Position numbers and translations under genes: made by a program. This document shows positions 12,195 through 27,080 of a stretch of DNA of 37,899 nucleotides, in pieces. The stretch covers positions 1 through 37,899 of the forward strand of contig JALXAX010000183.1 in the NCBI GenBank assembly GCA_026991755.1, written 5' to 3'. Source of the stretch: Thiotrichaceae bacterium (lineage in GTDB: Bacteria > Pseudomonadota > Gammaproteobacteria > Thiotrichales > Thiotrichaceae). Numbering within the stretch: the stretch's first letter is position 1; every line of letters begins with the position of its first letter. The notes under the pieces are model-generated. The model searched no databases. It was not told the origin of the DNA and saw only the letters and a list, made by a program, of their open reading frames with translations.

Positions 12195-12439
12195 ATGATG
12201 CTTTCCAAATCCAGTTTACATCAACCCAATGCTCTATATCATTTATATAATCGGGGTTATCATGTGACTCAATTGCACAACCAATAGCTATAACTCTATT
12301 TTTGTTATGATATAAAAGTACTAAGTCTCCCTCCTTTATGGGGTCAACTTTATGTAGCTTGCCCCAAAATGCAGCAGCTTTATTTTGCCGAAGCATATAT
12401 TTGTATCCATTAGGATTTCCGTTTTCCTCTTTAGTATTA

Positions 12440-12600
12440 CCTGAATCCGTGACTTCAATGCGGATAATAGGGGATAATAGATTGGTTTAGCACGGGATTT
12501 TAAAAAATCTTAGCTTCACCCTTCGTTAAGCGGGTATTTTTTAAACCCGTGATGAATCAATATCTTATTCCCTATGCCGTAGTGAAGTCACGGATTCAGG
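12440..12600. repeat. Miniature inverted-repeat element, family B copy 2
   Basis: 161 bp, nearly identical to copy 1 at 1373-1534, with the same 17-bp terminal inverted repeats and a perfect 5-bp duplication TATTA (12435-12439, 12601-12605). It interrupts the 140-residue gene near codon 9. Confidence 0.92.
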
Positions 12601-12835: not shown

Positions 12836-12873
12836 AAATCCCCCTCAATCCCCCTTTAAAAAGGGGGAAGCCA
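12836..12873. repeat. Family F C-run/G-run repeat
   Basis: AAATCCCCCTCAATCCCCC followed by a TTTAAAAAGGGGG closing arm, 40 bp downstream of rhlE in its direction. The family recurs at 19421, 22669 and 24558. The surrounding stretch 12629-12914 contains no gene. The hairpin may end rhlE transcription. Confidence 0.65.
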
Positions 12874-15385: not shown

Positions 15386-17116
15386 ATGCCACACTCTTTA
15401 AAAATCACCATTGGACAACACTCTGATAAAGGCCGCAAAGCCATTAACCAAGACTTCCATGGTGTCTACATCCCTACTGAACCTTTACTCAGCTCAAAGG
15501 GTATTGCCATTGCTATCGCTGATGGGATTAGTAGTAGTGAAGTCAGCCAGATAGCGAGTGAAACGGCCGTTAGTGGTTTTTTAAGCGATTACTATTGCAC
15601 CTCCGAATCGTGGTCCGTCAAAACAGCGGTACAGCGGGTGTTATTTGCCACTAATTCATGGCTATACGCACAAACCAAAAATAGCCAATACCGATTCAAT
15701 AAAGACAAAGGCTATGTCTGTACCTTTAGCACGTTGGTGCTTAAATCAAATACGGCTCATATTTTCCACGCGGGAGACTCACGTGTTTATCGCTTACTGG
15801 ACAATCACCTTGAGCAACTTACCGAAGATCACCGACTATGGATTTCTCAGGAAAAGAACTACCTAAGCCGTGCGTTAGGTATTAATGAACAGCTTGAAAT
15901 TGACTACCAAACCCTGCCTTTAGAAGAAGGTGATGTCTTTATGTTAGCAACCGATGGCATTTATGAATTTGCCCCTGAAGCTTTCATTATCGACACCATC
16001 AACAACCACTCTGATGATTTAGACCAAGCAGCTAAAATCATTTTAGATAAGGCTTATCAACAAGGTAGTACCGATAACCTCACCCTGCAAATCGTTAGGG
16101 TAGACGAACTACCCGCACAAGAAGCCAACGAGCTACATCAACAGTTAACTACGCTACCCTTCCCGCCTGAGTTAAGGCCACGCATGGAGTTTGACGGCTA
16201 TAACATTATCCGTGAGGTTTATATCAGCAGCCGTAGCCACGTGTATTTAGCCGTTGATCAAGCGTCAAACAAGAAGGTAATCCTCAAAACACCTTCTACC
16301 GAATTACAAAATAACACCCAGTATCTAGAGCGTTTCTTGTTGGAAGAATGGATAGCTCGGCGCATCAATAACGCCCACGTACTAAAGGCATGTGAACAAA
16401 CCAGAAAACGTAATTATCTCTATACCGTCACCGAATATATTGAGGGGCAAACGCTGGCACAATGGATGATCGACAACCCAAAACCCAGCATTGAAACGGT
16501 ACGTGGCATTGTCGAGCAAATCGTAGTGGGGCTAAGAGCCTTTCACCGCCAAGAAATGCTGCATCAAGACTTGCGCCCCAATAACATTATGATTGATCAA
16601 ACAGGTACGGTGAAAATCATTGATTTTGGTTCAACCTATGTGGCGGGTGTGATGGAAACTGTTCAGCTAGATGAACAAGAGCATATCTTGGGAACGGCTC
16701 AATATACGGCTCCTGAATATTATTTGGGAGAAAGTGGCACTACCCGCTCGGACTTATTTTCCCTGGGCGTAATCGCCTATCAAATGCTATCGGGCAAATT
16801 ACCTTATGGTACGGATGTAATCAAAGCACGCACCAAAGCCATGCAACACAAACTCAACTATCGTTCGGTATTGCAAGATGATCATGAAATCCCCGCTTGG
16901 GTTGATGAGGCGATACGTAAGACTGTTCACCCTAACCCGCTGAAACGTTATGCGGAGTTATCAGAATTTATTTATGATTTGCGCCACCCCAATAGCACCT
17001 TTTTGAATAAAACACGCCCACCTTTAATGGAAAGGAATCCTGTTGTTTTTTGGAAAGGAATCTCTTTTTTTCTTTTTATAATGGTCATTGTGTTATTGGT
17101 GAAGGATCGGTATTAG
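15386..17116 (+). CDS. Bifunctional PP2C phosphatase / Ser-Thr kinase, membrane-tailed
   Basis: A 576-residue fusion. Residues 5-240 are a PP2C phosphatase with metal-binding acids visible at D23, D46-G47, D131, D190-G and D230-N. Residues 268-540 are a Hanks-type kinase: nucleotide Lys in VILK (K301), catalytic loop HQDLRPNN (D395, N400; Gln replaces the usual Arg), DFG (413-415) and APE (442-444). A single hydrophobic segment (about 552-572) ends the protein, placing both domains in the cytoplasm. Such fusions sit in nitrate/nitrite assimilation clusters (for example beside nasA and nirB in Pseudomonas). I infer control of nitrogen uptake. HQD in place of HRD may favour constitutive activity. 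Confidence 0.88.
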   Translation: MPHSLKITIGQHSDKGRKAINQDFHGVYIPTEPLLSSKGIAIAIADGISSSEVSQIASETAVSGFLSDYYCTSESWSVKTAVQRVLFATNSWLYAQTKNSQYRFNKDKGYVCTFSTLVLKSNTAHIFHAGDSRVYRLLDNHLEQLTEDHRLWISQEKNYLSRALGINEQLEIDYQTLPLEEGDVFMLATDGIYEFAPEAFIIDTINNHSDDLDQAAKIILDKAYQQGSTDNLTLQIVRVDELPAQEANELHQQLTTLPFPPELRPRMEFDGYNIIREVYISSRSHVYLAVDQASNKKVILKTPSTELQNNTQYLERFLLEEWIARRINNAHVLKACEQTRKRNYLYTVTEYIEGQTLAQWMIDNPKPSIETVRGIVEQIVVGLRAFHRQEMLHQDLRPNNIMIDQTGTVKIIDFGSTYVAGVMETVQLDEQEHILGTAQYTAPEYYLGESGTTRSDLFSLGVIAYQMLSGKLPYGTDVIKARTKAMQHKLNYRSVLQDDHEIPAWVDEAIRKTVHPNPLKRYAELSEFIYDLRHPNSTFLNKTRPPLMERNPVVFWKGISFFLFIMVIVLLVKDRY

Positions 17117-19838: not shown

Positions 19839-20774
19839 ATGAAACCCACTGAAACCAAACACCTAGATCGACAACGGGGTAAACATTTACGCCCTCCTAA
19901 ACAGCTGATTGAGAACCGGGTAAGCTTTGCTGGCCCTAACTCCGAGGTAAGTATTTACGATACCTATGAAGCAGCGAAACGCGTACAGCTCAATTCAGGA
20001 GAGTTATTGTTTTGTGGCATGATGACGGGGCGCAAAGTCATGCACATGCCTAATCAAGAGAAAGGGCAGGTGTTTTTACCCCATGAGTGCTTCATTATGG
20101 CACCAGGTGAAGTGGTTGAAATAGACTTCCCAGAAGCTAAAATGGACACTCCAACTACTTGCTTAACGGTCGAGATTTCTAAAGAAAAAGTCAGTGCCAT
20201 TAGCGAACGACTGAGTGATTCCATACCCATGCTAGAAGTCGCCAATGAATGGCAATTTGGTAAACCGATCTTACACACTCATCACTCCAGCGAAACACAA
20301 CGCTTGCTCAACCGACTCACCACCCTATTCACAGAAAACCATCCCGATAGAGACACCTTGATTGATCTGAATGTATCCGAATTGATCATTCGTATGCTGC
20401 GCCATAAAACGCGAGATTTCCTGCTCACTTATTGCAGTAAAGACCCTGAAGCCAATAGTCTGATAGCCGCACTAGACTGGATCAATAGCACGTTATCCAA
20501 ACCACTCAATATAGACCATCTTTGCCGTCATGCAGGCATGAGCCGAAGCCGTTTGTATGTGGAATTTAAGGAGAAAATAGGCTGTTCGCCTGTGGAGTTA
20601 CAACAGCAACTCCGTTTAAAACGCGCTGCCGAACGCATCCGAAACGGTGAAGCCATTACTGCGATAAGCTACGACCTTGGCTTTAACAGCCCTAGCCATT
20701 TTTGCCATCGCTTTAAGAACTTTTTTGGCTGTTCTGCGACGGAATATAAAGTGCGTCAACAGCTGGAAGACTAG
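19839..20774 (+). CDS. AraC-family transcriptional regulator
   Basis: A 311-residue regulator. The C-terminal 100 residues carry two HTH motifs: PLNIDHLCRHAGMSRSRLYV with EFKEKIGCSPVELQQQLRLKRA, then AITAISYDLGFNSPSHFCHRFKNFFGCSATEYK. The N-terminal half (about 25-190) looks like the AraC_N/cupin-type effector domain. It is divergent from the aldehyde dehydrogenase gene and likely controls it. AGGAG precedes the ATG. Its 3' end overlaps the convergent patatin gene by four bases. Confidence 0.9.
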   Translation: MKPTETKHLDRQRGKHLRPPKQLIENRVSFAGPNSEVSIYDTYEAAKRVQLNSGELLFCGMMTGRKVMHMPNQEKGQVFLPHECFIMAPGEVVEIDFPEAKMDTPTTCLTVEISKEKVSAISERLSDSIPMLEVANEWQFGKPILHTHHSSETQRLLNRLTTLFTENHPDRDTLIDLNVSELIIRMLRHKTRDFLLTYCSKDPEANSLIAALDWINSTLSKPLNIDHLCRHAGMSRSRLYVEFKEKIGCSPVELQQQLRLKRAAERIRNGEAITAISYDLGFNSPSHFCHRFKNFFGCSATEYKVRQQLED

Positions 20775-21922
20775 CGTATATGCTCAGCAGACATCACTTG
20801 CTCTGCATAAGCCTTGCCCACTTCACTCAACATATCCATCGTATCTAGCACATCCATTTTACGCATTCGCTTAATTTGCTTTTCAGAATAGTCGGTAATG
20901 CCCAGCTCTTTTGCTAACCAGTCTGCTTCTAAAATCGCATCATAACGGGTGTAAGAAAACAGTGGATTATCCGTTAGCATTTCGTTTTCTAACGTACCCA
21001 TCGCTAGGTCAATTTCATTTGAAGGCCCAATCGGTTTGCCGAACCATTGCATCATTGCCTGATTCAGCTCTGTCGTATCATCCATCAATGACATCAGCGA
21101 CTTAGCCCCACCAATAGCACTCGGTACTAAAGAAAAACCACCTTGCTTTATGTGCTCTCTTTGCTCCCAGCTGCCTGTACCCATAGACAGTATAAAGAGT
21201 TCATCTTCTCCTGTATCCCATTGATAGTGGTAGCCTTTCATGGTAGCCAGCATCAGTAATTGCAAAGCAGGGTTATTGTGTGGGCTGACTCCACCGTCTA
21301 TAAACTTACCCCACACACCTTCTGATATTTTAATAATTTCAGGCGAAAAAAAGCTAGGCGCTGCCGTACTCGCACGAATGATTTGTTTGAGAACATAACT
21401 GCCATTATCGCCATTACCTTCAGCAAAAAACTGCCCATCGGGATTATTATCAACCACCCACACGCTACCCGTATCTAGGCGTTTAGTAACAATACCCAAG
21501 GCTATCCCTTCGCGGGTAATGTCTTTCATCAAGCGGTTTTCGAAATGTTTCTCTAAGCACTCATTAATCGGCTTGGTTGCAAACTTGGCACGAATAATCC
21601 CATAACGAAACCAGCTGTTTTTAAAGATGATTTTACTTAGCTCACGGTAAAGATCATCCAGCTCATCCGCCGTTTTACCGATGGCAATAGCACTGGCGAT
21701 AATAGCCCCTGTTGATGTGCCACCCACTAGTTGGAAATAATCCCGTAGCAGAGCATGAGGGTTATTCGTCTTTTCTCGGATGATGGTCTCTAAACGCTTT
21801 AACAACTGCACCGTGAATAACCCGCGAATGCCACCGCCATCTAGTGCCAGAATACGCTTTTTGCCTTTGCTGAGGACATTCTCACGGAATTTACTATAGG
21901 GATCGTTTTGGGATGTTGGCAT
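20771..21922 (-). CDS. Patatin-like phospholipase
   Basis: A 383-residue lipid acyl hydrolase with the Ser-Asp dyad: oxyanion loop GGGIRG (29-34), nucleophile S70 in GTSTG and D209 in DGG (209-211). No signal peptide is seen, so it is presumably cytoplasmic. The start has GAGGA 8 bases upstream and lies 12 bp after the GDYV-repeat gene, indicating an operon. Patatins of this general type serve as membrane-degrading effectors in some antiphage systems (CBASS CapV), but no nucleotidyltransferase gene is nearby. A housekeeping or lipid-storage role is equally possible. Confidence 0.88.
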   Translation of the reverse strand: MPTSQNDPYSKFRENVLSKGKKRILALDGGGIRGLFTVQLLKRLETIIREKTNNPHALLRDYFQLVGGTSTGAIIASAIAIGKTADELDDLYRELSKIIFKNSWFRYGIIRAKFATKPINECLEKHFENRLMKDITREGIALGIVTKRLDTGSVWVVDNNPDGQFFAEGNGDNGSYVLKQIIRASTAAPSFFSPEIIKISEGVWGKFIDGGVSPHNNPALQLLMLATMKGYHYQWDTGEDELFILSMGTGSWEQREHIKQGGFSLVPSAIGGAKSLMSLMDDTTELNQAMMQWFGKPIGPSNEIDLAMGTLENEMLTDNPLFSYTRYDAILEADWLAKELGITDYSEKQIKRMRKMDVLDTMDMLSEVGKAYAEQVMSAEHIR

Positions 21923-21934
21923 CTATTATCCTCG

Positions 21935-22462
21935 TTACCCTTTCTTGGCTAGCTGATAAGTACCTAAAAAGGAAGATTTAGCGATACGATAGACCTCATT
22001 CAACTGAGGCAAGGGCGACACTAAATAATCCCCCCGTTCTACTCGCTGAGTCTCCCCCCAAGCCGCTTCTAGCTCGAAAGGTGTGTTTTCTACCGCTAAT
22101 AGCGACAACACCATTTCATCCACCTCAACGGCTTGTACTTGGCCTTTGGGTAAATACTCATCCCAGTGACTCTTATCATTATCGTCCTCGTTAGTATCTA
22201 CAGCTTTTGAAAAGCTGTACAAGGTAGGAAATTTATCTTTAGACACTACATAGTGCTCTTTAGAAGAAGTGAGATTCGCCACAATGTAATCCCCCTTGTT
22301 AGCAGTATTAACCGTTTCTTTTTTTCCATCGACAACCGTAGTAACCACCTCTTCTTCACTCGCCTTACGCGCATGGATGGGTTGGAATTTTTGGTAGTGC
22401 TTGGCTGATGCTGTAATAGCTGGGAGTATTTTCTGTTGTAATTGTTGCTGTGAAATAGTCAT
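21935..22462 (-). CDS. Unrecognised protein with duplicated GDY[IL]V module; patatin partner
   Basis: 175 residues, no signal peptide or membrane segment. Two copies of a module are visible: KGDYIVANLTSSKEHYVVSK (56-75) extending to YSFSK, and RGDYLVSPLPQLNEVYRIAK (143-162) extending to YQLAK. They share the pattern GDY[IL]V..L....E.Y.[IV][AS]K..F...Y. This resembles the PGDYG-type domains described in bacterial genomes, a resemblance I cannot confirm. Operonic with the patatin gene 12 bp downstream, so it may regulate, inhibit or deliver the phospholipase. Function unknown. Confidence 0.7.
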   Translation of the reverse strand: MTISQQQLQQKILPAITASAKHYQKFQPIHARKASEEEVVTTVVDGKKETVNTANKGDYIVANLTSSKEHYVVSKDKFPTLYSFSKAVDTNEDDNDKSHWDEYLPKGQVQAVEVDEMVLSLLAVENTPFELEAAWGETQRVERGDYLVSPLPQLNEVYRIAKSSFLGTYQLAKKG

Positions 22463-22668: not shown

Positions 22669-22703
22669 AAATCCCCCTCAATCCCCCTTTATTAAGGGGG
22701 GAG
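22669..22703. repeat. Family F C-run/G-run repeat
   Basis: AAATCCCCCTCAATCCCCC, then TTTATTAAGGGGG. The most complete stem of the family here. Located between the TIR-DUF1566 gene and the GDYV-repeat operon, where it could reduce read-through. Confidence 0.65.
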
Positions 22704-22772: not shown

Positions 22773-22842
22773 GGACGTGCGGCTTTAGCCGCGCATAAAC
22801 GGCACGGTAGTGGCGCACTGGCGCGACTAAAATCGCACGTCC
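22773..22842. repeat. Palindromic repeat G, overlapping the end of the TIR gene
   Basis: GGACGTGCGGCTTTAGCC ... GACTAAAATCGCACGTCC with a second inner GCGC pairing. The right arm provides the last codons (DVRF) and the TAG stop of the TIR-DUF1566 gene. Only one copy is in the window. Confidence 0.75.
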
Positions 22843-24293
22843 AATAATGAATGGACTAAACGCACACGTGCAGTACTTCTGCGATTATTCCCACTGTCGT
22901 AACCATCACTGAAGCCGACATACCATGCGTAAGACGCTCTTTCAGTTGATGACCAATACCAATCACTACCTGTATTAGGAAAAGCTTTTTGGTCAATCGT
23001 TGGGCTTTTATAATCCCCTCCTCTATCATCTTTACCCGAACAAGTTTGATCCCAGGCTTCTTTCTGAGGAATACCATTACTACAATAAACCAAACTACGA
23101 AGTTCCTTTAAAGTAGGTAGACGCCAATCAGAATACCCAGCAAAAATGGCATCTTTACCCTTTTTAATTGCTTCCGACCAAGTGTAATCTTTGGCTTCAC
23201 CCTGCCCACAATTAGAGCCACTCAATCCTTCTGCACATTTTTTCCACATGAGCCCTGTTTTAGTATCAGTGACTGTGCCATCGCCATTATCGATGTAATG
23301 ACCGATACGGGTTTGCTTGGCTAATTGCGCAGCTTTTTGTTTTGCTAGTGCGGCTTTCTTTTTTGCTTCAGCTTGTTTTCTTTCTTTGGCTAGTTTTTTT
23401 GCTTTAGCCTCTTTTTCTTTCTTTTCTTTAGCTAGTTTTTCTGCTTTAAGCCTTGTTGCTTCTAGCTTTTCTTGTGCTAGCTTTGCTGCTTTTTCCTTTT
23501 TCTCTTTGGCTAGTCTTTCCTTTTTGGCTTGTGCGTCTGCTTGTTGTTTCTTTTCTTCAGCTAGCTTTTTGGCTTTTTCTTCTTCATCTTTCTTCTCTTG
23601 GGCTAAACGCTTCGCTTCTGCCTCTGCCGCAGCTTGTTGCTTCTTTTCTTCGGCTAGCTTTCTGGCTTTTTCTTCCTCATCTTTCTTCTCTTGAGCTAGG
23701 CGTTTCGCTTCTGCCTCAGCTTTAGCTATCTCTTGTGATTGTGAGTTATCTGTTATGTGAAGTGTTGTTCCTCCATTTTCTTCAGTAGGTTGTAAGGCAA
23801 CATAACCTGCACTAGCTACGCCTATAACTGCCAATATCCCTATCACCCAACTCCAAGGTTTGGATCTTTTTGGTGGTGGAGGCGGAGGTAACGTATCTCC
23901 TTCCAACGGGGCGTGTATAGCAATCGCACGTAGTAATCGCTGATAACGCGGGTCATCTGTTTTGCCTTTCCATTTTTGTAGATCAGCTGACTGGATATGC
24001 CCAAACTGCATAGGAGGTTCGACATCGTGATACAGCACAGGCACGTATACGTTACGCGCTAGCCCTTTATTGCTTTCGGCTTTAACCCATGTGGACTGGA
24101 TAGCGTCTTTTGACCAGACGGTTAATACGCATTTGGTACTTTCCAAGGCTTCTTTGATAACGGTTTCGTAGTCTTGCCCTGGTAATATTTCAGGATCCCA
24201 CCAGACATCATAGCCTTCAGCTACTAAGGTAGCGGCTAGTGTTTTAACCCAAGGTTTATCCTTGCGGCTATAGCTGATGAAGATATCGGTCAT
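22827..24293 (-). CDS. TIR-domain / transmembrane / coiled-coil / DUF1566 protein
   Basis: A 488-residue receptor-like fusion. Residues 1-125 form a TIR domain (TDIFISYSRKDKPWVKTLA, WWDPEILPG, WVKAES with the candidate NADase Glu at 73). A proline run (136-141) leads to one membrane segment (147-166). Residues 188-330 are an Ala/Glu/Lys coiled coil containing two near-identical 31-residue repeats. The C-terminal 150 residues are DUF1566: DNGDGTVTDTKTGLMW, WRLPTLKELRSL, WYWSSTERASYAWYVGFSDG and VRLV. Topology would place TIR in the cytoplasm and DUF1566 outside. The last residues DVRF come from repeat G. Ligand and TIR activity are unknown. Confidence 0.85.
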   Translation of the reverse strand: MTDIFISYSRKDKPWVKTLAATLVAEGYDVWWDPEILPGQDYETVIKEALESTKCVLTVWSKDAIQSTWVKAESNKGLARNVYVPVLYHDVEPPMQFGHIQSADLQKWKGKTDDPRYQRLLRAIAIHAPLEGDTLPPPPPPKRSKPWSWVIGILAVIGVASAGYVALQPTEENGGTTLHITDNSQSQEIAKAEAEAKRLAQEKKDEEEKARKLAEEKKQQAAAEAEAKRLAQEKKDEEEKAKKLAEEKKQQADAQAKKERLAKEKKEKAAKLAQEKLEATRLKAEKLAKEKKEKEAKAKKLAKERKQAEAKKKAALAKQKAAQLAKQTRIGHYIDNGDGTVTDTKTGLMWKKCAEGLSGSNCGQGEAKDYTWSEAIKKGKDAIFAGYSDWRLPTLKELRSLVYCSNGIPQKEAWDQTCSGKDDRGGDYKSPTIDQKAFPNTGSDWYWSSTERASYAWYVGFSDGYDSGNNRRSTARVRLVHSLLDVRF

Positions 24294-24557: not shown

Positions 24558-24593
24558 CCTCCCCCTTTGTAAAGGGGGATTGAGGGGGATTTG
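24558..24593. repeat. Family F C-run/G-run repeat, reversed
   Basis: CCTCCCCCTTTGTAAAGGGGGATTGAGGGGGATT in inverted orientation relative to the other copies, ending directly next to the stop codon of the DUF1501 gene (24594-24596). Probable terminator or REP-like hairpin for that gene. Confidence 0.65.
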
Positions 24594-25754
24594 CTAACTC
24601 AAAAACGGCAGTGTGCCATACTGCCCCCACGGATTAGGTCGTCGCCACCAGTTTTGTGCAATCGTGCCATACATTTGCCTAAAATCGGTAGTGTGTGCGA
24701 CATTTCCATTACCATCTAGCTGCCCCATATTAGGGTGTTTGCCGTAGATACCACGCTTTACTTTGCCACCAAAGACCATGTGTGTTGATGCTGTTCCGTG
24801 GTCTGTACCCATGCCTCTGTTTTCTGCCGCTCTTCTACCAAATTCTGAGTAGGTTACGACTAATACCTTGTCCCACAAGCCTTTGCTTCGCATCACTTTT
24901 GCAAAAGAGCTAATACCGCTTGCTAACTGAAATAATGCGTTATTTTGTAGTTGAATTTGGCTGGCGTGGGAGTCAAACCCTCCTTGTGTCACTTTGTATA
25001 CAGGGGCATCTACTCCGCTTAGCATCATCTGCGCCACGGCTTGTAGACCATGCCCTAAATCACCTGTAAAACCTGGGATAGGTCTAGGGCTTGTACCCAC
25101 TTTTTCAGCAATTTGCTCACCTACTGTATGTAACTGATGCCTAATTTTGGTGACATGCTCTATGGCAGGGTTACGGTGGTTTATCTCTATATCTTTGATA
25201 TTCTTAGCGGCACGAATAAACGAGGCAGGGTTTTGCATAGTCACTGCATTCAGTTTGCTACCCGCTAAGATACCACCACCTTCTACGCCTCCTTTATTGA
25301 TGATAACGCCATGTAGCCCTTGCTTAAGCTCAGGCACTACTTGCGCTAACCAGCCATTGCTATAGTCGTTGATAGATGCACTTTCCCAGATATCGAGTGA
25401 TTGGAAATGAGACAGCGAGCTATGCGGATAGCCCACTCCTTGCACCCATGCCATCTGCCCTTTTTGCCACAATGGTTTGAGTTTTTCGAGCTGTGGGTGC
25501 ATCCCAAAACCTTCTTGATTTGCACCTTCCAGCTTGAGCACAAAGCGCTCTTTTATACTAATATTCTTACGCAATTTATAATAATTATCATCACCATAGG
25601 GGACTAGCGTATTAAAACCATCATTACCCCCTTTTAGATGAATTAATACAACGGTTCGACCTGTTTTACTCAAATCAGCGGCATTAGTAAGGCTGGGGAA
25701 CATACTGCCCATACCGACTAATCCTGCATAGTGTAAAAAGTCTCTTCTATTCAT
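24594..25754 (-). CDS. DUF1501 exported protein
   Basis: 386 residues, beginning with a twin-arginine-type signal (MNRRDFLHYAGLVGMGSMFPSL...NA). Seen: RTVVLIHLKGGNDGFNTLVPYGDDNYY, HPQLEKLKPLWQKGQMAWVQGVGYPHSSLSHF, GFDSH, VVTYSEFGRRAAENRGMGTDHGTAS. The last is the DUF1501 signature, which belongs to the alkaline-phosphatase/sulfatase-like superfamily, with D/H residues suggesting metal binding. Nearly always paired with a DUF1800 gene, as here (33 bp downstream of it). Function unknown; periplasmic. Confidence 0.9.
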   Translation of the reverse strand: MNRRDFLHYAGLVGMGSMFPSLTNAADLSKTGRTVVLIHLKGGNDGFNTLVPYGDDNYYKLRKNISIKERFVLKLEGANQEGFGMHPQLEKLKPLWQKGQMAWVQGVGYPHSSLSHFQSLDIWESASINDYSNGWLAQVVPELKQGLHGVIINKGGVEGGGILAGSKLNAVTMQNPASFIRAAKNIKDIEINHRNPAIEHVTKIRHQLHTVGEQIAEKVGTSPRPIPGFTGDLGHGLQAVAQMMLSGVDAPVYKVTQGGFDSHASQIQLQNNALFQLASGISSFAKVMRSKGLWDKVLVVTYSEFGRRAAENRGMGTDHGTASTHMVFGGKVKRGIYGKHPNMGQLDGNGNVAHTTDFRQMYGTIAQNWWRRPNPWGQYGTLPFLS

Positions 25755-25787
25755 GTTTCGACATTCCTGACTGATAGATTCACAGTC

Positions 25788-27080
25788 TTAATAAATTTGA
25801 TACGCTGGGTCTAGCGTCAACGCGTGAATCAGGCGCTTGTTTCCTGCTTTTTCAGGGAAAGCATGTGCGGGCGGGATAGGCAGTAGCCATTTCGCCATTT
25901 GCTCTTTTGACAGGTCTGGAGGCAGCAGCCGATCTATGCCACTTTTTTCACTTCGCATACTGCCTCGGTTTAGGTTTCTTAATAGGCCATCACGCAATAA
26001 GAGTGATTGGGTGCTTAACCAGGCATCACCCGTCACCCAGCCTTTTACGGTGGGCTGGTCAAACAAAGCTTGTCCCATTAGGTTGAGCTGATGAACGAGG
26101 TTATCCTTAGGTAATTTCATTGGTAACGCTCTTAATGTACCCACCGCAAGGTCTATTGGTGATTTAATAAGCGCCCCTCGGTTAGATTCTGCCCAAAATT
26201 CATTGCTGGTTAAGACGGTTCTTAGCAGTGTGGTTATATCGTAATTTGCGCTGACCAATTTCTGCGCCCATTGCTTAACGATGGTGGGGTTGGGGCGAGA
26301 GGTATTTATAAACTCTTTCCACATTCTTTCAGCTATTCGTTCAGGGGTGCGCTTGTGTTTGAGCATAATATCAAGCGTCTGATCACCATTAAAGTTGCCT
26401 TTCTGCCCTAAAATAGTTTTTACGCTAGTATCGTGCAGGTCTGCATGATTGACAAAACGTCCTGTACGATCATCAATACTCCAGCCTGTAAAGGCTTTTG
26501 CTGCCTCATGGATATCATTCTCATTATATCGACCTCTGCCCACCGTAAACATTTCTAACACTTCACGCGCAAAGTTTTCGTTGGGTGCGCCTTTCATGTT
26601 TTGATTACCATCCAGATACACCAACATGGCGGGGTCTTTTGCAATCTCATGCAGTAGCACTTTGAAGTTACCTAAGGCATTTTTTCTCAACAGCAGGTTT
26701 TGTTGGTACAAAAGGCTCGACGAAAGTGTTTTAGAAATAGTTGACGGAAATACGTTGTGCCAGAACAGTGTCATCCGCTCCACAAAAGGAGCGGGAGTTG
26801 TTAACAGATGCTGAACCCACCACTTCTGCAACGCAGGCCCTTCTGTGCTAGCAATACGCATGATCATTTTCTTGCTACGCATATTACTGCGTAAGCCAGC
26901 AAGCTTGCTCCATGGTGTCATGGCGGGCGGTCTGGGTGGTGTTGAGTTTCGCTGTTTTAAAATTGCATTAACAGCTTGTGGCATAGGTTTGCCAATGATT
27001 TTTTGAATGCTTGCCCATTCTGGACCAAATCCAGTTCTGACAATGAGATGTCTGGCTTCATCAAAGCCTAACTTATCCAC
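25788..27080 (-). CDS. DUF1800 protein
   Basis: 430 residues; the N terminus is the typical DEARHLIVRTGFGPEW, followed by QKWWVQHLLTTPAPFVERMTLFWHNVFPS, QNMKGAPNENFAREVLEMFTVGRGRYNENDIHEAAKAFTGW and the HADLHDTSVKTILGQKGNFNGDQTLDIML block. DUF1800/DUF1501 pairs are widespread and of unknown role. No signal peptide is obvious with this start; an upstream start was not found. First gene of the two-gene unit. Confidence 0.9.
   Translation of the reverse strand: MDKLGFDEARHLIVRTGFGPEWASIQKIIGKPMPQAVNAILKQRNSTPPRPPAMTPWSKLAGLRSNMRSKKMIMRIASTEGPALQKWWVQHLLTTPAPFVERMTLFWHNVFPSTISKTLSSSLLYQQNLLLRKNALGNFKVLLHEIAKDPAMLVYLDGNQNMKGAPNENFAREVLEMFTVGRGRYNENDIHEAAKAFTGWSIDDRTGRFVNHADLHDTSVKTILGQKGNFNGDQTLDIMLKHKRTPERIAERMWKEFINTSRPNPTIVKQWAQKLVSANYDITTLLRTVLTSNEFWAESNRGALIKSPIDLAVGTLRALPMKLPKDNLVHQLNLMGQALFDQPTVKGWVTGDAWLSTQSLLLRDGLLRNLNRGSMRSEKSGIDRLLPPDLSKEQMAKWLLPIPPAHAFPEKAGNKRLIHALTLDPAYQIY

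Follow-up and report, generated by a model that had tools for sequence, protein, structure and literature searches.

Contig JALXAX010000183.1 of a Thiotrichaceae bacterium (assembly GCA_026991755.1), whose whole length of 37,899 nucleotides is called the window in this work, harbors on its minus strand a gene joining a TIR domain to a DUF1566 domain, the latter now named Lcl_C (PF07603). The questions raised by this locus are how such a protein is arranged across the membrane, what it might do, and whether its lectin-like end has been rewritten by diversity-generating retroelements (DGRs). The answer towards which we lean, with somewhat more confidence than doubt, is that the protein is a bitopic inner-membrane receptor whose TIR domain would cleave nicotinamide adenine dinucleotide (NAD) upon the sensing of an envelope ligand, and that the window copy is fixed, with no working DGR. 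A broader proposal, which is doubtful on balance and advanced as a tentative suggestion, is that Thiotrichaceae make bitopic TIR receptors with a DGR-rewritten outer lectin domain, and that variants become fixed once the homing end and the DGR are lost, the window gene being one of them. The elements of the gene are the following.

22827..24293, minus strand: gene of the putative TIR-membrane segment-stalk-Lcl_C receptor, 488 amino acids, ATG start
23916..24293, minus strand: TIR domain, residues 1-126, predicted cytoplasmic (Pfam TIR_2 and fold matches)
24075-24077, minus strand: codon of the putative catalytic Glu73, in WVKAES (alignment with AbTIR and PdTIR)
23793..23849, minus strand: single membrane segment, residues 149-167 (Kyte-Doolittle mean 2.15; N-inside by charge)
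23319..23729, minus strand: charged TolA-like helical stalk, residues 189-325 (one helix in the AlphaFold2 model)
22854..23279, minus strand: Lcl_C (DUF1566) C-type-lectin-like domain, residues 339-480, predicted outside (Pfam E 1.3e-30)
22827..22961, minus strand: counterpart of the DGR variable region present in relatives (column and codon comparison with genome G017)
22773..22842, no strand: palindromic repeat at the 3' end of the gene (arms 22773-22794 and 22821-22842)

Domain architecture and topology

The presence of a TIR domain, one membrane segment and DUF1566 in a single open reading frame, proposed in a first-pass annotation of the window, was confirmed by Pfam and hydropathy. The AlphaFold2 model of the full protein (mean predicted local distance difference test score, pLDDT, of 83 with 63 aligned sequences) resolves the TIR domain, the helix 189-325 and Lcl_C, and has a pLDDT below 50 across most of residues 136-190, membrane segment included. 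The closest orthologue, with an identity of 54-56% over nearly the full length, is encoded by G017, an uncultured Thiotrichaceae metagenome-assembled genome (region L053:596-2029).

Pfam TIR_2 matched residues 4-121 (E 2e-26, above cut-off). In the WVKAES motif, the glutamate that the annotation had taken as catalytic corresponds to Glu73, which in the alignment falls on the Glu of AbTIR and PdTIR; as far as conservation in homologues is concerned, the claim survives, Glu73 being kept in 30 of 31 TIR rows. The sole exception is L097 (on a contig shared with L064), which has a Val at this position and a TIR domain carrying a deletion. VIA-align placed the TIR of a Hydra Toll-related receptor first (Z 17.5), and retrieved the SPARTA TIRs with Z 14.2-17.1, SARM1 with 13.5-15.7, and AbTir with 14.5; the top row of Foldseek was AbTir. 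The equivalent glutamate is catalytic in the AbTIR, SPARTA and SARM1 enzymes, and the sequence suggests that the domain is probably an NADase. The ThsB models matched the window TIR weakly (E 2.5e-5), and no domain of what we take to be the ThsA type was found among the nine window proteins scanned with Pfam.

The topology is predicted from the charges flanking the segment 149-167: the 15 residues before it include three Lys/Arg and no Asp/Glu, those after it none and three, respectively, which favours a TIR domain inside and an Lcl_C outside. The same N-inside bias is shared by all six proteins examined (window, G017, L056, L059, L060, and L067). The stalk that follows (137 residues, rich in Lys, Glu and Ala) is an uninterrupted helix in the AlphaFold2 model. 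The annotation had described it as a 140-residue coiled coil; the long charged helix stands, but the coiled coil is not supported, since its hydrophobic residues lack a significant periodicity of 3.5-3.65 residues (512 out of 2000 shuffles reach the observed power, and 266 out of 2000 when Ala is counted). A heptad coiled coil was thus rejected, the periodicity being not significant in either the window or the G017 stalk. The match with the TolA profile is under the cut-off (37.2 vs. 59.45 bits); this, together with the absence of the 3.5-residue periodicity, led us to read the stalk as a TolA-like single helix. With a helix rise of 0.15 nm per residue, a stiff stalk of this kind would measure about 20 nm (137 residues x 0.15 nm) and might cross the periplasm.

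The Lcl_C domain was recognized by Pfam with 106.5 bits against a cut-off of 34.9. It was also folded and searched alone; the fold search with the full model gave mostly TIR rows. The isolated model (pLDDT 88.7) has its best match in the C-terminal domain of Legionella Lcl (8q4e; Z 13.3, root-mean-square deviation 2.8, 114 residues), followed by that of Bdellovibrio Bd2740 (Z 11.1) and by animal C-type lectins; the DGR variable proteins TvpA (2y3c) and Mtd (1yu3) match it too, both with Z 9.0. Foldseek returned an E below 0.001 for 8q4e only. According to the model, then, the domain has a C-type-lectin fold. Cys353 and Cys362 are mostly conserved in the Lcl_C rows; the former is a Cys in 36 of 41 and a Tyr in the other five, which in a related alignment are five fusions from one genus joining the two domains directly. 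A disulfide as a marker of the compartment was considered and set aside; it is a hint at most, and L075 keeps the Cys though no membrane segment was found in it. Here and below, statements on published work refer to particular passages of the sources cited. The Legionella Lcl C-terminal domain is a trimer which binds sulphated glycosaminoglycans, and DUF1566 has been suggested to act in carbohydrate recognition or trimer formation (PMC11162425).

We can depict the following scenario. The TIR domain would face the cytoplasm and the Lcl_C domain, at the far end of the stalk, would bind an envelope ligand, candidates being a glycan or a surface part of a phage or competitor, through a face of the kind diversified by DGRs. 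Once Lcl_C clusters on the ligand, the TIR domains would come into contact and begin to cleave NAD, which would stop the infected or damaged cell. The receptor layout put forward by the annotation agrees with the charge bias, the confident AlphaFold2 domains, the orthologue of the same layout and the architectures of relatives, but it does not extend to every relative, since Lcl_C is not outside in all of them.

Relatives and exchange of modules

In the 63 genomes of the family that were searched, a match to part of the protein (E 1e-10) was found in 36, at 111 places; 39 distinct regions were fetched, 35 of them around such matches and some only 4-6 kb long. The profiles revealed TIR and Lcl_C in one frame in 11 genomes, the window's included; a twelfth fusion is L075 (G054), whose TIR was recognized by eye. 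Among the fusions found, the full layout (TIR, membrane segment, helix, and Lcl_C) is shared by G017 only. G044, G050, G059, and G060 harbor TIR-Lcl_C fusions lacking the helix, and an above-threshold membrane segment is present only in that of G044 (L067); the G050 and G059 fusions have a weaker hydrophobic stretch behind a Lys-rich flank, and the G060 protein is alike. As for L059, L060, and L061, none has a segment above threshold, and the weaker stretch occurs in L059 and L060. In five genomes of one genus (in records named Cocleimonas, Leucothrix or Thiotrichaceae), TIR is joined directly to Lcl_C.

A scan of named genomes gave eight fusions among the best 79 of 144 confirmed loci, all labelled Thiotrichaceae, Thiothrix, Cocleimonas or Leucothrix. 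In a scan of 369 genomes of the class, which scored at most four candidates per genome, both domains were in one frame in the window genome and in G044 only, among the matches listed.

Other proteins combine the same parts differently. In L056 the TIR domain, the membrane segment and a charged stretch end in SH3_3 domains instead of Lcl_C; several relatives possess proteins made up of TIR, a membrane segment and FGE-sulfatase; L087 encodes a kinase joined through a membrane segment to Lcl_C, and L072 a protein with a signal-peptide-like N-terminus, leucine-rich repeats and Lcl_C. In L070, a gene for TIR and a membrane segment (with a DUF4384 match below cut-off) is divergent from a caspase-Lcl_C gene, the caspase being assigned by Pfam. 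Judging from these architectures, TIR, membrane segment, Lcl_C, FGE, SH3, and kinase are modules that recombine across relatives. A divergent pair resembling that of L070 is present in L068 and L069, which come from two further genomes, the caspase being assigned there by likeness; a tail of the variable-region type closes the Lcl_C genes in both G048 and G060.

The conservation of the TIR part bears on the idea that the protein is a surface adhesin with an acquired TIR-like intracellular part and no signalling function. Lcl_C does occur in the adhesins Legionella Lcl and Leptospira Lsa25 (the Lsa25 match being far below cut-off), and the fusion L097 has lost both Glu73 and part of its TIR; across the fusions, by contrast, the TIR core and the glutamate are conserved, which argues against neutral decay and makes this explanation very improbable.

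The neighbours of the TIR-Lcl_C fusions are common mostly to near relatives. A response-regulator gene lies directly downstream of the direct-join TIR-Lcl_C gene (L063:97-801, L064:760-1488, and L066:1088-1813; assigned by Pfam for L063 and L066, by similarity for L064), and a putative nuclease of the Uma2 family stands beside TIR-Lcl_C in L060:6674-7390, L061:7175-7891, and L067:6528-7118 (by Pfam for L060 and L067, by similarity for L061).

Retroelement signatures in the relatives and state of the window copy

Among the putative DGR targets of human microbiomes, no Pfam domains were commoner than DUF1566 and FGE-sulfatase (PMC4159848). Probing with the BPP-1 reverse transcriptase (RT), Brt, 23 out of 63 genomes gave a match at E 1e-8, some of which belong to other RT classes, e.g., in G017. 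Nineteen loci, chosen because an RT match was strong or had a TIR or Lcl_C gene nearby, were analyzed with a finder of template/variable pairs, validated by its recovery of the BPP-1 pair. Pairs were present in 16 of them; in 20 comparison loci the finder gave a single pair, which is a plain 93-base repeat of the window. The motif GLPIGxLxSQ (GIPIGSLTSQ in BPP-1) was found in 10 of the 11 RT frames checked, the eleventh being the N-terminal part of a split RT in L232.

Lcl_C genes turned out to be targets in G014, which belongs to the window's own genus, in G021 and in G046; adenines account for 94%, 95%, and (for the two targets in G046) 94% and 85% of the changes, respectively. From these sequence pairs, Lcl_C is a target of DGRs in this family. 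Moreover, proteins with a TIR domain are involved as well. The G057 TIR-membrane segment-FGE-sulfatase gene (L235:6087-9596; borderline segment, 1.61) is a target with 16 of 34 adenines changed vs. 1 of 95 other bases, its variable region lying at the last codons and a DGR-type RT and template just downstream. In G029 (L244:4440-12140), convergent TIR-NACHT-FGE and SEFIR-NACHT-FGE targets share one template beside one RT, and in G039 (L238) there is an overlap between the variable-region frame and the end of a TIR-FGE frame, the gene being apparently split. In G059, an FGE target whose N-terminus is hydrophobic precedes an RT and a template, and its start is overlapped by a gene for TIR and a membrane segment (Sel1 match below cut-off; L077:7952-11879); in another region of the same genome (L273:5761-9191) an Lcl_C template is flanked on both sides by a variable Lcl_C gene, and none of the frames listed there was recognized as an RT.

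This diversification has to be weighed against the possibility that the protein is a sensor of envelope stress or of self, in which Lcl_C would touch peptidoglycan, the outer membrane or a sheath polysaccharide and TIR would signal or act as a scaffold, with no role in phage defence. The TolA-like stalk fits such a sensor, and so does the sister protein L056, in which TIR and a membrane segment end in bacterial SH3 domains; these usually bind the cell wall. The closest solved relative of Lcl_C, moreover, binds sulphated glycosaminoglycans (PMC11162425). The maintenance of the putative catalytic Glu speaks against it, and the DGR diversification of the sensor domain in relatives is easier to reconcile with a ligand that changes than with a constant one of self origin; we regard this explanation as unlikely, though deserving some weight.

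The G017 orthologue bears a signature of the same kind. Compared with the G014 template, 17 of its 45 adenine positions vs. 9 of the 89 others are changed, none of them to A (Fisher p 2.3e-4); it shares the final 27 bases exactly with the G014 variable region, its homing-type 3' end being intact; and NNY codons occupy 22 of 25 template-varied columns vs. 193 of 453 positions outside them (p 6e-6). It has to be kept in mind that some excess at adenines may arise simply from setting an A-rich template against an Lcl_C gene, whichever it is. In this respect, no excess against the G014 template was detected for L063 (20/43 A, 42/86 others), L067 (16/43, 25/68), and L087 (7/18, 10/27); it was weak in L059 and L060 (p 0.021 and 0.036) and stronger in L072 and L075 (p 0.001 and 3e-5). 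In the close pairs L063/L066 and L062/L065 the differences are not in excess at the template-adenine columns, L060 and L061 are identical, and the DNA comparison of two G054 Lcl_C genes (40 of 70 mismatches with A on one side) is not telling.

The window protein equals that of G017 at 4 of 23 template-adenine columns, at 13 of 17 framework columns of the same region and at 77 of 118 positions elsewhere in the aligned domain. This distribution is relevant to a further explanation, according to which Lcl_C serves chiefly for trimerisation and has no informative ligand, the trigger coming from inside or from membrane damage. The C-terminal domain of Lcl is indeed trimeric and its authors suggest that DUF1566 may promote trimers (PMC11162425); besides, fusions with no detected membrane segment exist. 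The concentration of the window/G017 differences on the DGR-varied columns, on the other hand, is what is expected of a binding face, so that this explanation appears improbable.

In the window gene, NNY codons are found at 16 of 23 such columns vs. 191 of 466 elsewhere (p 0.0065). The window genome has no Brt-like RT at E 1e-8; its two RVT_1 proteins carry GTPQGGVISP and GIPQGSPIS, unlike the GLPIGxLxSQ of DGR RTs. Neither a variable-region-type tail nor an Lcl_C-type template (with up to three mismatches) was found in it, and BLAST gave no second copy longer than 21 bases, with the limit that, in an assembly of 207 contigs, an unassembled template is possible. Furthermore, the gene ends with VHSLLDVRF where relatives have VRLVRSGQ, the right arm of the palindrome (22821-22842) supplying its last codons and the stop. 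The window gene as an active DGR target was rejected for this assembly, given that a DGR-type RT, a template and a homing-type end were not found. The failure to find a DGR-type RT or a template in the genome, together with a 3' end lying in half of a palindrome, makes the copy look frozen, and we infer from these sequence data a fixed descendant of a diversified receptor. Alternatively, a DGR may never have been present in the window lineage, these columns varying as parts of the binding face.

Several observations weigh against the reading of the protein as a fixed, membrane-spanning NADase receptor. As regards its layout, Lcl_C starts about 11-13 residues after the TIR match in the five relatives of one genus, and these five and L075 have no detected membrane segment; given these six fusions, their sequences indicate that Lcl_C can be cytoplasmic, and the stalkless members likewise appear to show that a periplasm-spanning reach is not essential. 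As regards its function, no conserved neighbour marks the TIR-Lcl_C genes as a defence system. As regards DGRs, three of the 19 loci (L076, L081, and L234), all with an RT near a TIR gene, are pairless; hence, the closeness of RT and TIR is no proof of targeting. The G059 TIR-Lcl_C gene, which lies elsewhere in its genome, fits the Lcl_C template of that genome weakly (16/34 A and 24/99 others changed, with eight changes to A; p 0.012). The G017 assembly (about 150 contigs) shows no DGR-type RT and no Lcl_C-type template, its one Brt match at E 1e-8 carrying PQGGPLSP and not the DGR motif; its signature is therefore read as that of a remote or former target, and remote DGR targets have been described in cyanobacteria (PMC7517822). 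Lastly, the identity at 4 of 23 columns could come from change in G017 alone, and the adenine bias of the window DNA against the G014 template is not significant (17/39 A, 26/77 others changed; p 0.20), so that its putative DGR past rests on the codon bias and the orthologue.

Neighbourhood and comparison with known systems

The annotation placed the gene directly upstream of a GDYV-patatin operon and suggested that the three genes could form one island. The position is correct (same strand, 364 bases apart), and the corresponding explanation would be a three-gene defence island in which the TIR receptor senses and the CapV-like patatin kills, together with the GDYV protein. A resemblance of the patatin to CBASS phospholipase models was noted (E 2.7e-35), with a score under the cut-off (122 vs. 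200 bits). The suggestion did not withstand the comparison of genomes: in G017, the only other genome in which all three genes were found, contig C107 carries TIR-Lcl_C whereas GDYV-patatin is on C139, and the 17 kb fetched around the latter pair gave no TIR match; of the 63 genomes, 3 have both TIR-Lcl_C and patatin (Fisher p 0.077, rising to 0.21 when the window genome is left out), GDYV being found in 2 (E 1e-5) and patatin in 6 (E 1e-20); and neither gene is present in any other fetched TIR-Lcl_C region, though some of these span only 4-6 kb. The island was accordingly rejected, and we hold it to be the least probable of the explanations considered. C107 ends 1.7 kb downstream of the TIR gene, past CopG-like and alpha-2-macroglobulin-like genes (recognized by eye), and G036 has a patatin with no GDYV neighbour.

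As for the remainder of the window, the GDYV protein and the CapV-like patatin occupy 20771-22462, and the pair is kept in G017 on its separate contig; at the thresholds used, the GDYV protein was assigned to no Pfam, PADLOC or NCBIfam family. A DUF1501 and DUF1800 pair (24594-27080) precedes the TIR gene on its upstream side, and L059 has genes similar to this pair at a distance of about 6-7 kb from its own TIR-Lcl_C gene. A short palindromic repeat of the CCCCCT type occurs in three copies (12836-12868, 22669-22701, and 24560-24592), the last two being inverted relative to each other on either side of the TIR gene; that they delimit a mobile unit was considered and rejected, since the third copy points to dispersed repeats and they offer no proof. 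The 93-base repeat (1364-1456 and 12431-12523, with six mismatches between copies) is outside the Lcl_C gene, one protein with PP2C phosphatase and protein kinase domains is encoded at 15386-17116, and Rfam at gathering thresholds gave no match in the window.

The predicted layout can be compared with several known systems. AbTIR, the TIR-APAZ of SPARTA, and SARM1 share the fold of the window TIR, the position of the Glu being aligned for AbTIR and PdTIR; they are soluble or Argonaute-linked proteins, not membrane receptors. The Legionella Lcl C-terminal domain (8q4e) belongs to the same Pfam family and has the same fold (Z 13.3 over 114 residues), with an identity of 24-25%, but Lcl is a secreted collagen-like adhesin with no TIR; its C-terminal domain lacks disulfides (PMC11162425), whereas Cys353 and Cys362 are mostly conserved in the window family. 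With animal Toll-like receptors the protein would share an outside sensor, one membrane pass and an inside TIR, being alike in plan and not a member: its TIR is N-terminal and probably an enzyme, the sensor has a lectin fold instead of leucine-rich repeats, and the Pfam scan of the window protein shows no such repeat ectodomain.

Among DGR systems, the FGE-sulfatase (FGS) counter-invader systems share a lectin-fold sensor, and their DGR-linked FGS domains have been proposed as analogues of hypermutating adaptive immune receptors; they differ in being described as intracellular sensors with Death-like adaptors (PMC8195603). Related conflict systems have been tied to multicellular bacteria (PMC7159879). 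The cyanobacterial DGR variable proteins have, like the window protein, an N-terminal signalling domain (kinase, caspase-like or TIR) and a C-terminal C-type-lectin (CLec) domain, some of them with membrane segments or signal peptides and some remote from the DGR; unlike it, most are predicted to be cytosolic, and the main text mentions neither DUF1566 nor Thiothrix (PMC7517822). In the open-access literature, no paper was found joining DUF1566 with a TIR domain, Thiothrix with a DGR, or a bacterial transmembrane TIR domain with FGE-sulfatase.

A parallel also exists with the DGR-diversified antigen sensors proposed for multicellular bacteria, in which a CLec-fold variable domain is joined to, or encoded next to, immune effector domains including TIR; some of these sensors are predicted to be periplasmic, and such CLec/effector combinations occur in a gammaproteobacterium and others (PMC10907252). 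They differ in that the parts described in the passages considered are vWA, NACHT, CHAT or ATPase-linked, while its supplementary figures could hold a similar protein (PMC10907252); the window protein links TIR to Lcl_C by one membrane segment, and no DGR was found for it. By analogy, the present layout is a membrane-spanning variant of the DGR antigen-sensor ideas, with Lcl_C as the putative sensor. In the passages considered, the sensors proposed belong mainly to cytoplasmic or ATPase-linked systems; one polypeptide with a variable outside lectin, a single pass and a TIR enzyme would make transmembrane signal transfer directly testable in laboratory strains, and, if this is true, would give bacteria an equivalent of surface immune receptors whose diversity is somatic-like. 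A seemingly frozen copy beside diversified relatives would, moreover, let one ask how a variable receptor of this kind becomes fixed.

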